Of a stretch of DNA of 64,000 nt, positions 12,468 through 58,438 are shown piece by piece. The notes below the pieces were generated by a model. It had not been told where the DNA came from and made no database searches. It worked only from the letters and a program-made list of their open reading frames with translations. The DNA lies in assembly GCF_000015665.1 (NCBI RefSeq), contig NC_008817.1, forward strand, positions 1,116,001 to 1,180,000. The letters are read 5' to 3'. Within the stretch, counting starts at the first letter, position 1; each line of letters starts with the position of its first letter. The position numbers and the translations under genes are program-made. Origin of the DNA: Prochlorococcus marinus str. MIT 9515. Its GTDB lineage: Bacteria; Cyanobacteriota; Cyanobacteriia; PCC-6307; Cyanobiaceae.

Positions 12468-12581
12468 CTACTTCTGTACTTTTAAGTTAGAACCATACTT
12501 TATTTTCACAAGATAAGAAGCTAATAGCGACAGCACTAAAAAAAATAATAAACTTTCCAAAGTAGATTGAGGCATAACCAT
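12468..12581 (-). CDS. 37-residue single-pass membrane protein
   Basis: From ATG at 12581 (or the in-frame ATG at 12575) to TAG at 12468-12470. The peptide MVMPQSTLESLLFFLVLSLL continues ASYLVKIKYGSNLKVQK: one hydrophobic helix followed by a basic cytoplasmic tail, the usual topology of a tiny bitopic protein. No family recognised; codon use looks normal. Confidence 0.5.
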   Translation of the reverse strand: MVMPQSTLESLLFFLVLSLLASYLVKIKYGSNLKVQK

Positions 12582-12650
12582 AATTGAGTGAGAGAAAATT
12601 ACTATATTTCTATGAAAACGAACTTTATGAAAAAATCAAATCGTAATGTT

Positions 12651-13900: not shown

Positions 13901-15244
13901 TTGGACTCAAAAATTTCTCAAAGAGAGCAATGGACAAGTAAGCTCGGATTTATTCTTGCTGCTGCTGGGAGTGCTGTGGGACTCGGCAACTTATGGGGAT
14001 TTGCTTACCGGGCATCTCAAGGAGGAGGAGCTGCTTTTGTAGTTTTATACATACTAATTGTATTAATTGTTTGTCTTCCAGTTTTTGTAGCCGAAATGGC
14101 TTTAGGAAGAAGTGCAATGGCAAGTTCATTACTGGCTCCGGTGAAATTAGGAGGGAAGAATTGGTATCCACTAGGAATTCTTTTCTTTATAGCTCCTTTA
14201 GGTATTGCTTCATATTACTCAGTGATAATGGGATGGACGGCAGACACTTTATTTCACTCATTATTTTTTGGATTACCAAAAAATCTAGGCGAAGCTGAAA
14301 ATTTCTTTGGTTCTATAAGTACTGGAAGTAGTGTTTTGTTGGGGCATTTATTAAGTCTTCTACTTACAGCTTTTATAGTTTCGTCAGGAATAAAAAAAGG
14401 GATCGAGAAAGTCACAAGATATTTTATGCCTATCCTCTTTATAATTATTGTAATTCTAGCAATTTGGGCAACTTCCCTTTCAGGAGCATGGGAAGGATAT
14501 AAAGCTTTCTTATTTAAGTTTGACTTTTCAGAATTAAGAAACCCTCAAACGATAAGGAATGCTTTTACTCAGGCATTCTTTTCTTTGAGTTTAGGTATTG
14601 GAATAATGGTTACCTACTCTTCATACTTAAATAAAAAAAGTAATTTACCAAAATTAAGTATTGGTGTTGCTTCATTAGATACCTTAGTAGGACTAATGGC
14701 GGGCTTAATTACTTTCCCAATAGTTTTAACCTTTGGCTTAAGTGATGCAATCTCTGAGTCAACAGTTGGGGCATTATTTATTTCTATCCCGACAGGATTA
14801 GGTTCCTATGGTTTTGCAGGTAGGTTAGTAGCTGTTGCTTTTTTTGCATTAGCTTATATAGCTGCTATTACTTCTTCTGTTTCTCTTTTGGAAGTGCCTG
14901 TTTCCTCATTAATGGATAAATTTGGATTTAAAAGGGGTAAATCTGTATGGATAATCACTTTATTTCTATTCTTAGCGGGAATTCCATCAGCATTAAATTT
15001 AAATATCCTTGGAACGGTTGATTCAATATTTGGGGGCGTATTACTTATCTTCGGAGGATTCCTAGTATCGTTCTTCATGGGATGGGTGGTTCCAGGAAAG
15101 TTCAATGAAGAACTTAATACTTCTAAAGTAGGCAAAAAAACTTATCTATATTTAAAGTTTATGTTGAGATGGGTATCGCCTCCAATTATTGCTTTTGGAT
15201 TAGTGATAAGTATTTTTGACTTACTTAAAAGCTGGGTATCTTGA
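13901..15244 (+). CDS. Sodium-dependent transporter, NSS/SNF family
   Basis: A 447-residue polytopic inner-membrane protein. The N-terminus REQWTSKLGFILAAAGSAVG, continuing LGNLWGFAYRASQGGGAAFV, is the hallmark first-helix region of neurotransmitter:sodium symporters (bacterial LeuT/TnaT type), which hold sodium and substrate in the unwound helix 1. Roughly 11 hydrophobic helices are visible, as in other bacterial members. The start is TTG at 13901 (MDSKISQREQW); no ATG is available. The likely substrate is an amino acid, not predictable further. It stands alone, 320 bp ahead of selO. Confidence 0.85.
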   Translation: MDSKISQREQWTSKLGFILAAAGSAVGLGNLWGFAYRASQGGGAAFVVLYILIVLIVCLPVFVAEMALGRSAMASSLLAPVKLGGKNWYPLGILFFIAPLGIASYYSVIMGWTADTLFHSLFFGLPKNLGEAENFFGSISTGSSVLLGHLLSLLLTAFIVSSGIKKGIEKVTRYFMPILFIIIVILAIWATSLSGAWEGYKAFLFKFDFSELRNPQTIRNAFTQAFFSLSLGIGIMVTYSSYLNKKSNLPKLSIGVASLDTLVGLMAGLITFPIVLTFGLSDAISESTVGALFISIPTGLGSYGFAGRLVAVAFFALAYIAAITSSVSLLEVPVSSLMDKFGFKRGKSVWIITLFLFLAGIPSALNLNILGTVDSIFGGVLLIFGGFLVSFFMGWVVPGKFNEELNTSKVGKKTYLYLKFMLRWVSPPIIAFGLVISIFDLLKSWVS

Positions 15245-56561: not shown

Positions 56562-56801
56562 ATGCCCAAAAGAAGTTCAATAGCATTATTTATAGCAGCA
56601 TCAAGTGTATTAGCTATCAATACTGCAGATTCTAATTCTATTAAAGCAGGAGAAAATGATTTAGGAGGATTAAAAGAATGGAACACTGATATGAGTGTTG
56701 ATGCTGATTTTATTCTAGATAAAGAAGCTCAAAAGTTAGCAGATGAAGCCAAAAAATCTAGTTTGTGTATTCCTATTGGGGAAGGAGAGAATTGTTGGTA
56801 A
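56562..56801 (+). CDS. Small secreted protein
   Basis: A 79-residue protein with a signal peptide (SSIALFIAASSVLAINTADS) and a short acidic mature part (GENDLGGLKEWNTDMSVDAD) ending KKSSLCIPIGEGENCW, with two cysteines that could form a disulfide. No family recognised. It lies between the iron genes futA/piuC and the porin, convergent with the porin. Its 3' end and terminator have been tandemly duplicated (see 56996-57050). Confidence 0.7.
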   Translation: MPKRSSIALFIAASSVLAINTADSNSIKAGENDLGGLKEWNTDMSVDADFILDKEAQKLADEAKKSSLCIPIGEGENCW

Positions 56802-56818
56802 ATATAATAAACTTTAAA

Positions 56819-56844
56819 AAAAACCGCTAATTAAAGCGGTTTTA
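56819..56844. terminator. Terminator hairpin, copy 1
   Basis: AAAACCGCT-aattaa-AGCGGTTTT, a symmetric stem with A-run before and T-run after, usable in both directions. It lies 18 bp after the stop of the small secreted protein. The same element recurs at 57077-57100. Confidence 0.85.
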
Positions 56845-56848
56845 GAAA

Positions 56849-56878
56849 TAAAAAAACACCTTTTAAGGTGTTTTTTTT
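56849..56878. terminator. Second symmetric terminator hairpin
   Basis: AAAACACCTT-TTAAGGTGTTTT, a nearly perfect palindrome followed by a long T-run. It probably served the minus-strand porin before the duplication. In the second copy (about 57107-57128) this element is degraded. Confidence 0.75.
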
Positions 56879-56892
56879 GTATTTAAAGATTT

Positions 56893-56982
56893 TTTAACAT
56901 AGCACTTAAATGATCTCAGCCCTGTTTAACGGCACTACCAGCTCTATCGGATCCACCGAATATTGCAGGAGTAACGTTAACA
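56893..56982 (-). pseudogene. Duplicated 3' end of the porin gene
   Basis: Read on the minus strand: VNVTPAIFGGSDRAGSAVKQG, TGA stop, DHLSAM. The intact porin at 57140-57250 reads VNVTPAIFGGSDRAGSAGRQ, then GRDHLGAVV. Nucleotide identity is nearly complete over about 40 bp (56941-56982 versus 57207-57248) and then declines. The piece has no start and an internal stop, so it is a non-functional copy produced by a tandem duplication. Confidence 0.85.
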
Positions 56983-56995
56983 TAACTCGGACAAA

Positions 56996-57050
56996 TAAAG
57001 CAAAAAAATCATATAATCGTCTCCCTATTGGGGAAAGAGATGATTATTGA
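56996..57050 (+). pseudogene. Duplicated 3' end of the small secreted protein gene
   Basis: The codons from 57000 read AKKSYNRLPIGERDDY and stop at 57048-57050. The intact gene ends AKKSSLCIPIGEGENCW. It is followed by a second copy of the terminator. There is no start codon or signal peptide: it is the right-hand copy of the duplicated junction. Confidence 0.8.
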
Positions 57051-57076
57051 TAAATATAAATAAACTTAAAAAAAAA

Positions 57077-57100
57077 AAAACCGCTTATTAAAGCGGTTTT
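57077..57100. terminator. Terminator hairpin, copy 2
   Basis: AAAACCGCTT-atta-AAGCGGTTTT, a 10-bp stem preceded by a long A-run. On the minus strand the A-run becomes T, so it now serves as the porin terminator. Duplicate of 56819-56844. Confidence 0.85.
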
Positions 57101-57139
57101 AGTAAATAAAACACCGTTTAAGGCATTCTAAATTTTGAG

Positions 57140-58420
57140 TTAGAACTTAAAGGTTGTTTCAACAACAGCACCTAAATGATCTCTACCCTGTCTACCGGCA
57201 CTACCAGCTCTATCGGATCCACCGAATATTGCAGGAGTAACGTTAACAGAATCATTAACTTGATAAGAATAATAAGCTTCCCAAGCTATAGGATCAACAG
57301 TTGTTTCGTCTTCTCTTGTTTGAGGCTGACCAAAAGCAACTCCAATTTTATCATCAGGAGTAAATGTATCTTCCCATGTTAAACCTACGAAATAAGCCGT
57401 AGTATTAGAGTTGGTAGTAGCATCTGTTTCTGAGGTGTCATAACCTAGAGAGATTGAAGGGGTCGCCTTACCAGCATCTTCAGGTCTCCACCAGCCTCTC
57501 AAACCGATGTTTGAACTATTACCACCGTTTGGTCTTAATTTACCAAATGGAGTTGTGTAATATGAGTCAGTCCAGCCGTTATACTTCATGTTAAGAATTA
57601 CAGAAGCAGAGTAGGTTGGCTGTGTATATCCAATTTGAGTAGCCCAACTAGTAGCAGATTCGTTAGTTCCCCAACCACTGGTAGAATCGCCTTCTTTACT
57701 TACAACGTTTGAACTGATTGCAAAACCGTTATCAGCTTTGTAAGCCCAACCAAATCCAGGGTTAGTACTTGCACCGTAAGCTGCTCCGTTACCACCTAGT
57801 GTAAATTGCTTAGTTATAGGCTGGTATATGGATGGAGTAGTCGCATGCATATAGTAGTTTTCAATTTTTGGACCAATCCAAACTGTGTGTTTTTCACCAA
57901 CAGGGAATGTGTACCAAATTTTGTCAACTTTTATAGCGTCGGCATTACCTTTAGATGAAGACAAATATGTTCCATATGTATAAGAAGTTTGCCAACCAGT
58001 TGCATTACCAGTTTTCAACCTAACATAAAGATTATCATCACCTGTAAAACTTGTATTGAGGTTACCCTGCCACATGTATGTAGCTAAAGTACCTTCAGTT
58101 TCTCCTGTTTCTTCAACATTTAATGCACCAACAGTGAAGATTACTTTACCGTCAAGTGTTGTTGTCTCAGAAAAGGAACCAGCCTCATAATCATTTTGAA
58201 TAGCTTCAATACCGTCAACACGTCCTTTTAGTGTTGCAAGTTCTTCGTTAACTTCATTAACGAAAGTTTCACTGTCGAATAAACTTGTAGCAGATGATTT
58301 GTTACTACTGTTGTAGTCATTCATCCCCTCAAGGTTCAACACGTCAGAAGCTTGAGCAGCCATAGGAGCAATTAAGCCTACAGAAGCTGTAGCAACTAAC
58401 ATTTTTTGGAAGAGTTTCAT
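57140..58420 (-). CDS. som: Outer-membrane porin (Som/iron-uptake-porin type)
   Basis: A 426-residue protein. A signal peptide is followed by cleavage near AQAS (LVATASVGLIAPMAAQAS). A short SLH-like/coiled-coil segment (NEVNEELATLKGRVDGIEAI) follows, then a beta-barrel rich in Gly, Thr and aromatic residues, ending ETTFKF with the C-terminal Phe. The picocyanobacterial Som-type porins have this arrangement and are the main outer-membrane proteins, passing small solutes; some are annotated as iron-uptake porins. A GAGGT ribosome site precedes the ATG. Base composition is higher in G+C, as for highly expressed genes. Confidence 0.88.
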   Translation of the reverse strand: MKLFQKMLVATASVGLIAPMAAQASDVLNLEGMNDYNSSNKSSATSLFDSETFVNEVNEELATLKGRVDGIEAIQNDYEAGSFSETTTLDGKVIFTVGALNVEETGETEGTLATYMWQGNLNTSFTGDDNLYVRLKTGNATGWQTSYTYGTYLSSSKGNADAIKVDKIWYTFPVGEKHTVWIGPKIENYYMHATTPSIYQPITKQFTLGGNGAAYGASTNPGFGWAYKADNGFAISSNVVSKEGDSTSGWGTNESATSWATQIGYTQPTYSASVILNMKYNGWTDSYYTTPFGKLRPNGGNSSNIGLRGWWRPEDAGKATPSISLGYDTSETDATTNSNTTAYFVGLTWEDTFTPDDKIGVAFGQPQTREDETTVDPIAWEAYYSYQVNDSVNVTPAIFGGSDRAGSAGRQGRDHLGAVVETTFKF

Positions 58421-58438
58421 TTTACCTCACACGAAAAA

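Follow-up and report, generated by a model that had tools for sequence, protein, structure and literature searches.

Genes at the locus

The window, a 64-kb stretch of DNA covering positions 1116001-1180000 of a single-contig genome of 1,704,176 bp, contains two intact convergent genes, a small secreted-type gene on the plus strand, designated S, and a porin gene on the minus strand, designated porin B (Table 1). S has a signal-like stretch at its N-terminus, as judged by eye, and a conserved C-terminus, CIPIGEGENCW. It matched no Pfam or NCBIfam profile at an E-value of 0.001, and it was found in 175 of the 266 genomes of the genus that were searched; the named relatives that carry it are mostly Prochlorococcus. 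Porin B scored 105.9 bits against NF033921 (por_somb; cut-off, 100) and is by this profile a predicted iron uptake porin. On the 5' side of S lie a gene for an Fe2+-dependent dioxygenase of the PKHD type (NF003974) and, still further upstream, one for a solute-binding protein, and glyQ lies on the far side of porin B.

Table 1. Features of the S-porin B junction, with positions in the window
Feature	Position	Strand	Description
S	56562-56801	+	Intact small secreted-type gene, 79 aa; left outer gene
Copy 1 of the junction (S tail, terminator pair 1, porin-tail relic)	56772-56982		Gapped alignment
Terminator 1a	56820-56843		Two-way hairpin, -11.7 kcal/mol
Terminator 1b	56850-56877		Perfect 13-nt inverted arms, -11.9 kcal/mol
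Porin 3'-end relic	56885-56982	-	In-frame TGA; left half decayed (37/45), right half 53/53 against the live porin
Tract identical to locus A	56933-58171		1239/1239 to L004:7801-9039
Novel joint, porin tail/S relic	56983-56991		Sequence comparison
S 3'-end relic	56992-57050	+	Conserved C-terminus gone
Copy 2 of the junction	57024-57248		Gapped alignment
Terminator 2a	57077-57100		Intact, -12.3 kcal/mol; T tract on the porin strand; presumed porin terminator
Hairpin 2b (altered second hairpin of copy 2)	57108-57130		Lost on the plus strand; a weaker one predicted on the minus strand
Porin B	57140-58420	-	Intact, 426 aa; NCBIfam NF033921 match

Anatomy of the duplicated junction

An earlier note on this DNA had proposed that the unit consisting of the 3' end of S, the terminator and the 3' end of the porin is present twice in tandem, and both the repeats and a BLAST alignment agree with this. 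The self-alignment that it had called for gave ungapped direct repeats at offsets of 252 (S tail), 257 (first terminator) and 266 (porin tail), and a single gapped BLAST alignment united them, 57024-57248 against 56772-56982, with 82.5% identity over 228 columns (E 6e-48). Two direct copies and one novel joint, as in a tandem duplication, were therefore found. The proposed interval, 56745-57250, was correct, but the unit extends slightly more to the left, with the S tail beginning at about 56740. The genes on the outer sides are whole and the copies lying inside are broken, as had been described: the inner porin tail contains an in-frame TGA, and the inner S tail lacks the CIPIGEGENCW sequence, which is kept by all seven close relatives examined. 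Because the two genes converge, neither was broken, and the claim that a duplication can leave both unharmed agrees with the intact S and porin B.

With gap columns set aside, the two copies agreed at 47/59 positions in the S coding tail, 13/14 in the S 3' UTR, 27/28 in terminator a and 33/38 in the terminator b region. In the porin tail, of which the division into halves was chosen post hoc with the data already seen, they agreed at 37/45 positions on the left and 53/53 on the right. The possibility that the inner unit is the remnant of a second porin gene was rejected, since barrel sequence is absent between the copies.

Each live gene has a good-looking predicted terminator, 1a and 1b for S and 2a for porin B. 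The second terminator had been thought to be altered, and this applies to its second hairpin, which is lost on the plus strand (-2.1 kcal/mol, against -11.9 kcal/mol for the counterpart in copy 1); the first hairpin is intact, however, and 2b is still predicted on the minus strand. The further suggestion that the duplication relocated the porin terminator was unsupported. Terminator 2a lies about 40 bp beyond the porin stop, roughly as in the relatives, and S kept copy 1, so that a common hairpin set would have been split in two without moving the porin terminator. When strains lacking the duplication were compared, a single junction with two kinds of hairpin was found in 7/7 close relatives examined. 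In AG-388-D03, the first hairpin is doubled. Short internal repeats were also observed in the gap between S and the porin in L076, L078, L079, L091, L110 and L137; that of L076 is a doubled terminator hairpin, and the other five look similar in self-comparison.

Distribution of the duplicated junction

The 207-bp inner segment was searched against the DNA of the genus with three candidates scored per genome, a procedure that diverged cases, e.g. AG-347-K16, escape. Matches at E<=0.01 were obtained in 216 of the 266 genomes. Among the matches listed, full-length ones came from the segment's own genome only, and those from other genomes covered the S tail and terminator, only the porin tail, or short hairpin sequences rich in A/T. 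The joint was spanned in none of the other 265 genomes among the matches listed, and a 30-base pattern across it had no exact match in viral_contigs.

A census of the S-porin junction was made in part of the 175 genomes with S. The 141 loci were reduced to 135 distinct by sequence after removal of six duplicates, and 132 junctions had a long minus-strand ORF after S, three near contig ends being left out. This ORF ends in F or Y and is porin-like in 130 of the 132; the exceptions are L081, in which the frame is broken, and L127. S is a conserved small secreted-type protein whose next long minus-strand ORF is porin-like at its end nearly throughout the census. In L081 (AG-363-P06), the porin frame stops early and the remaining tail is recognisable downstream, with 88% identity to another porin.

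The same architecture was found in 2/131 other junctions, one clear and one weak, with different breakpoints. In AG-347-K16 (L082) the order is S, terminator, porin-tail relic, S relic with stops, terminator and porin. MIT 9201 (L129) has a shorter and weaker form, the weakest case, in which the translated porin relic gave an E-value of 0.02 and the S part is about 15-25 bases. Because the breakpoints differ, these two and the window were taken as separate events. Duplicated junctions thus number at least three of the 132, window included, and this is a lower bound: gap self-comparison covered 80 named loci, and the comparison with pooled S and porin tails covered gaps of at least 50 bases and missed the MIT 9201 case. 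A translated comparison covered 13 long gaps, and no convincing relic was seen by it in those of L199, L121, L103, L087, L229 and L124.

The relic tail of AG-347-K16 is 86% identical over 79 positions to porins of other genomes, against 79% over 80 to its own, and its S relic is 90% identical over 69 to another S, against 88% over 65 to its own. Since the relic tail fits other porins better, the porin of AG-347-K16 would have been replaced after the event or in it.

Relics and live genes of the window

For the window, a simple duplication within the lineage is the likely origin of the relics. The entire relic tail matches its own porin best, with 90% identity over 102 positions, the next being 83% over 82. 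Its right half agrees with the own porin at 50/50 positions (next best, 42/50). For its left half the own porin is barely ahead, with 44/57 matching positions against 42/57 for the AG-388-D03 porin. The S relic agrees with the own S at 45/62 positions and with S of the relatives at 40-43/62, a slight edge only. Both of these comparisons count against the history that we prefer below. Over 56992-57080, AG-670-N10 scores 46 against 45 for the own sequence, yet with fewer identities (70/88 versus 74/86). In an alignment of 248 columns and 38 differences, the longest run free of differences was 53 columns (permutation P 0.0016), and on this ground the live tail probably overwrote the right half of the relic porin tail at some time since the duplication. 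Probably, then, the right half is either much younger than the rest or overwritten, and the preferred history needs one more conversion.

An identical tract at a distant porin array

The 1239-bp tract in Table 1, which comprises relic sequence, terminator 2 and most of porin B, has its identical counterpart at locus A, a tandem porin array about 105 kb from the window locus (locus B) in the same genome. Locus A lies between an hli-like gene and apt. The right edge of the tract is the SETTT hinge motif and its left edge is the common CACTACCAG; the shared motif is only 9 bp long at the left edge at A, which counts against the preferred history. The downstream array gene (L004:8008-9267, minus strand) is an open frame, and agrees with porin B at 1034/1035 positions in the barrel DNA and at 139/195 in the N-terminal DNA. 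As in gene conversion, a near-identical tract with sharp edges was therefore found in diverged paralogs at separate loci. The N-terminus of this downstream gene, which is of the array type, is nearest those of the downstream array genes of other genomes (0.86-0.87), and for this reason the gene was taken as the recipient.

The likeness between inner and outer tails runs on past the tract edge at B; at A, the array's own tail takes over beyond that edge. This tail and the array's own terminator adjoin the tract on its left and share 119 identical bases with the upstream mate; on our reading they would be the remains of a previously homogenised array. The B barrel was found at the array in one of the 25 genomes compared, this one (750/750 over the last 750 nt), and the other 24 gave 0.70-0.77. 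B-like porins occupy locus B in close relatives (62-88% protein identity, eight best); judged from these other species, B would have held the donor state. The 1239-bp identity is best read as a recent gene conversion whose tract ran past the porin and into the duplicated junction.

Elsewhere on L004, direct repeats of about 100 bp (89% identity) at 12551-12649 and 14521-14618 flank an ORF of 531 aa. One of them overlaps an ORF of a type that arises spuriously from tRNA genes, and it is perhaps an integration site.

Array porins across Prochlorococcus

Tandem porins with near-identical barrels and different N-termini were observed among loci L268-L307, L178, L179 and L181. The array sample consisted of 40 loci from a listing and four others, 44 in total; L269, with one complete gene, was dropped, and 43 genomes with 45 pairs remained. 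The loci were chosen for closeness of the genes and not for identity of the pair, so that the sample is non-random and biased to relatives of the query. In this sample, 33 of the 43 genomes have an array porin pair whose last 750 nt agree at 99% or higher, and in 31 of these 33 the pair is less than 90% identical over the first 150 nt. The pairs of L272 and L276 also resemble each other at the N-terminus and are simply recent copies of the whole gene. The barrel identity is also present in the single-contig genomes G012, G019, G022 and G032, and is therefore not peculiar to single-cell assemblies. Ten of the 43 genomes, including the window genome, have no such pair. On our reading, the window genome would lack one because its downstream barrel came from B.

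For the nearest-neighbour comparison, 84 genes from 42 genomes were used, with L269 (one gene) and L179 (three genes) excluded. The nearest barrel was that of the own array mate for 74 of the 84 genes, and the nearest N-terminus in other genomes was at the same array position for 70 of them. Barrels were more alike within genomes (median identity 1.00) than between them (0.745, upstream genes), as is the case in concerted evolution. The N-termini of upstream genes were more alike between genomes (median 0.815); those of downstream genes gave a median of 0.751, against 0.748 for array mates, which counts against a strict rule of position and against the history preferred below. Overwriting of barrels among array porins thus looks widespread in these sequences. 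In AG-347-J22, the third array porin (L179:5951) has a B-like start (0.89 over 150 nt) and a barrel closer to its mates (0.80) than to B (0.70), which on these values is an exchange of the opposite kind.

Proposed history and other explanations

We regard as probable a history of three steps, in which a tandem duplication in the lineage was followed by homogenisation of the array and then by conversion of the barrel from B to A. The sequences themselves show the repeated units with their relics, the exact 1239-bp match, an N-terminus of array type in the downstream gene at A and identical barrels in other genomes; we infer the order and direction of the events, how the duplication arose and that it arose within the lineage. 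In the first step, the stretch spanning the 3' ends of S and of the porin would have been duplicated in tandem, through template switching or unequal exchange where the genes converge on hairpin-rich sequence, leaving whole outer copies and inner copies that decay as 3' fragments. In the second, array A would have held two tandem porins with barrels and 3' ends homogenised by gene conversion, as is seen in most of the sampled relatives. In the third and recent step, the barrel of the downstream array gene would have been overwritten from locus B, by an exchange that started at the conserved SETTT hinge and finished in the relic tail, beyond the live porin tail. Because the exchange ended in this outer relic tail, the decayed junction and terminator 2 would have been carried along with the barrel.

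The junction could also be the scar of a porin allele replacement, in which an S' tail, the terminator and a new porin were acquired from another strain without any tandem duplication, with the ectopic conversion as a later event. Homology on the porin side and illegitimate joining inside the old porin tail would have left that tail beside an S' fragment; homology-facilitated illegitimate recombination is described in PMC3240628. The S relic and the left half-tail of the window, which are not clearly closest to their own genes, fit such a scar, as does AG-347-K16, with a relic tail nearer to other porins and an S relic slightly nearer to another S. AG-347-K16 can also be accounted for by a porin replacement following a duplication, however, and in the window the right half-tail is identical to the own porin, though possibly by later overwriting, and the whole relic tail matches the own porin best. 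We consider a replacement scar rather unlikely. If the cassette was made at the array and copied to the window locus, the direction would be the reverse. Identity by itself has no direction, and the left edges of the tract (56933) and of the relic-tail portion that is identical (56930) are just 3 bp apart. This direction is very unlikely, since the relic context is continuous only at B, and B-like porins lie at B in the close relatives and at A in none of the 24 other genomes compared.

An artefact of assembly from repeated porin sequence has also to be considered, because an exact repeat of 1.24 kb is difficult for some assemblies and the case was judged from assembled sequence. As the source of the duplicated junction, assembly error is unlikely, because the copies differ at many sites (27 mismatches and gaps) and the inner joint is present at two loci that differ in their flanks. 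The ectopic tract is bounded on both sides by motifs common to the genes, and barrel identity of the same type was found in 33 of the 43 sampled genomes, so that we give an artefact hardly any credence. Retention of the inner segment for a function, as a small RNA or as the 46-aa plus-strand ORF at 56910-57050, seems to us equally far-fetched. This ORF spans the relic tail into the S relic, and the 53-column identical run is compatible with constraint, but the S relic and the left tail have decayed and the segment is whole in no other genome of the genus among the matches listed. A search of Rfam gave no match to the segment at the gathering score; the matches below that score lay on the terminator hairpins and were taken as chance.

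Relation to known systems and to Yfr1

Relics of tandem segmental duplications in bacteria consist of head-to-tail copies with a novel joint and truncated inner genes, and their redundant parts decay. The window, with two such copies, resembles them in each of these points; unlike them, its unit spans a convergent junction with neither gene broken, and similar structures with other breakpoints lie at the same junction in two other genomes. It is a clear case of copies laid over convergent genes and harmless to both. The literature search found no related paper on tandem duplication across convergent genes. In Helicobacter pylori, gene conversion takes place among the bab genes, which are outer-membrane paralogs. 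The likeness lies in conversion that is ectopic, between separate loci encoding outer-membrane proteins; here, however, the barrel and 3' end would be exchanged while the 5' end and N-terminus stay, and the organisms are free-living marine cyanobacteria. Barrel conversion was not found described in the titles and abstract beginnings of the literature on Prochlorococcus and cyanobacterial porins, subscription papers being mostly outside this scope, which is weak evidence of novelty.

While the local relic is ordinary, concerted evolution limited to the barrel, with an ectopic case, is the larger result, and the junction relic serves as a tract edge that reveals the extent and the likely direction of one exchange. 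The chances seem to us evenly balanced that Prochlorococcus porins form a modular exchange system, in which chromosomal position fixes the promoter, 5' end and N-terminal stem, the barrel and 3' flank are repeatedly overwritten by array mates and sometimes by a locus 100 kb away, and decayed duplicated junctions are its edges and scars. If so, trees built from whole porin genes would mislead.

The porin pair at L181 (genome G032), which we take to be probably PMM1119/PMM1121 of MED4, agrees at 906/912 positions in the barrels and 139/198 in the N-terminal DNA, and these look like genes kept alike by conversion. They are porins of the same kind as the window porin; their barrels are alike within the array, whereas the array barrel of the window genome would derive from another locus. 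In PMC6778093, PMM1119 and PMM1121 are stated to stem from gene duplication and to be targets of the sRNA Yfr1, which acts on the 5' UTR of PMM1121. The Yfr1-type motif is given as aCUCCUcACACAC in PMC2518516. Immediately 5' of the ATG, both the window porin mRNA and that of the recipient have GTGTGAGG, the complement of CCTCACAC (58426-58433 and L004:9262-9269), and a Yfr1-type site may hold the porin 5' ends fixed. Porins are exposed surface proteins, two of which in MED4 are under sRNA control at the 5' end (PMC6778093); should the barrel be replaced and the regulated 5' part left in place, a strain could alter either one separately.
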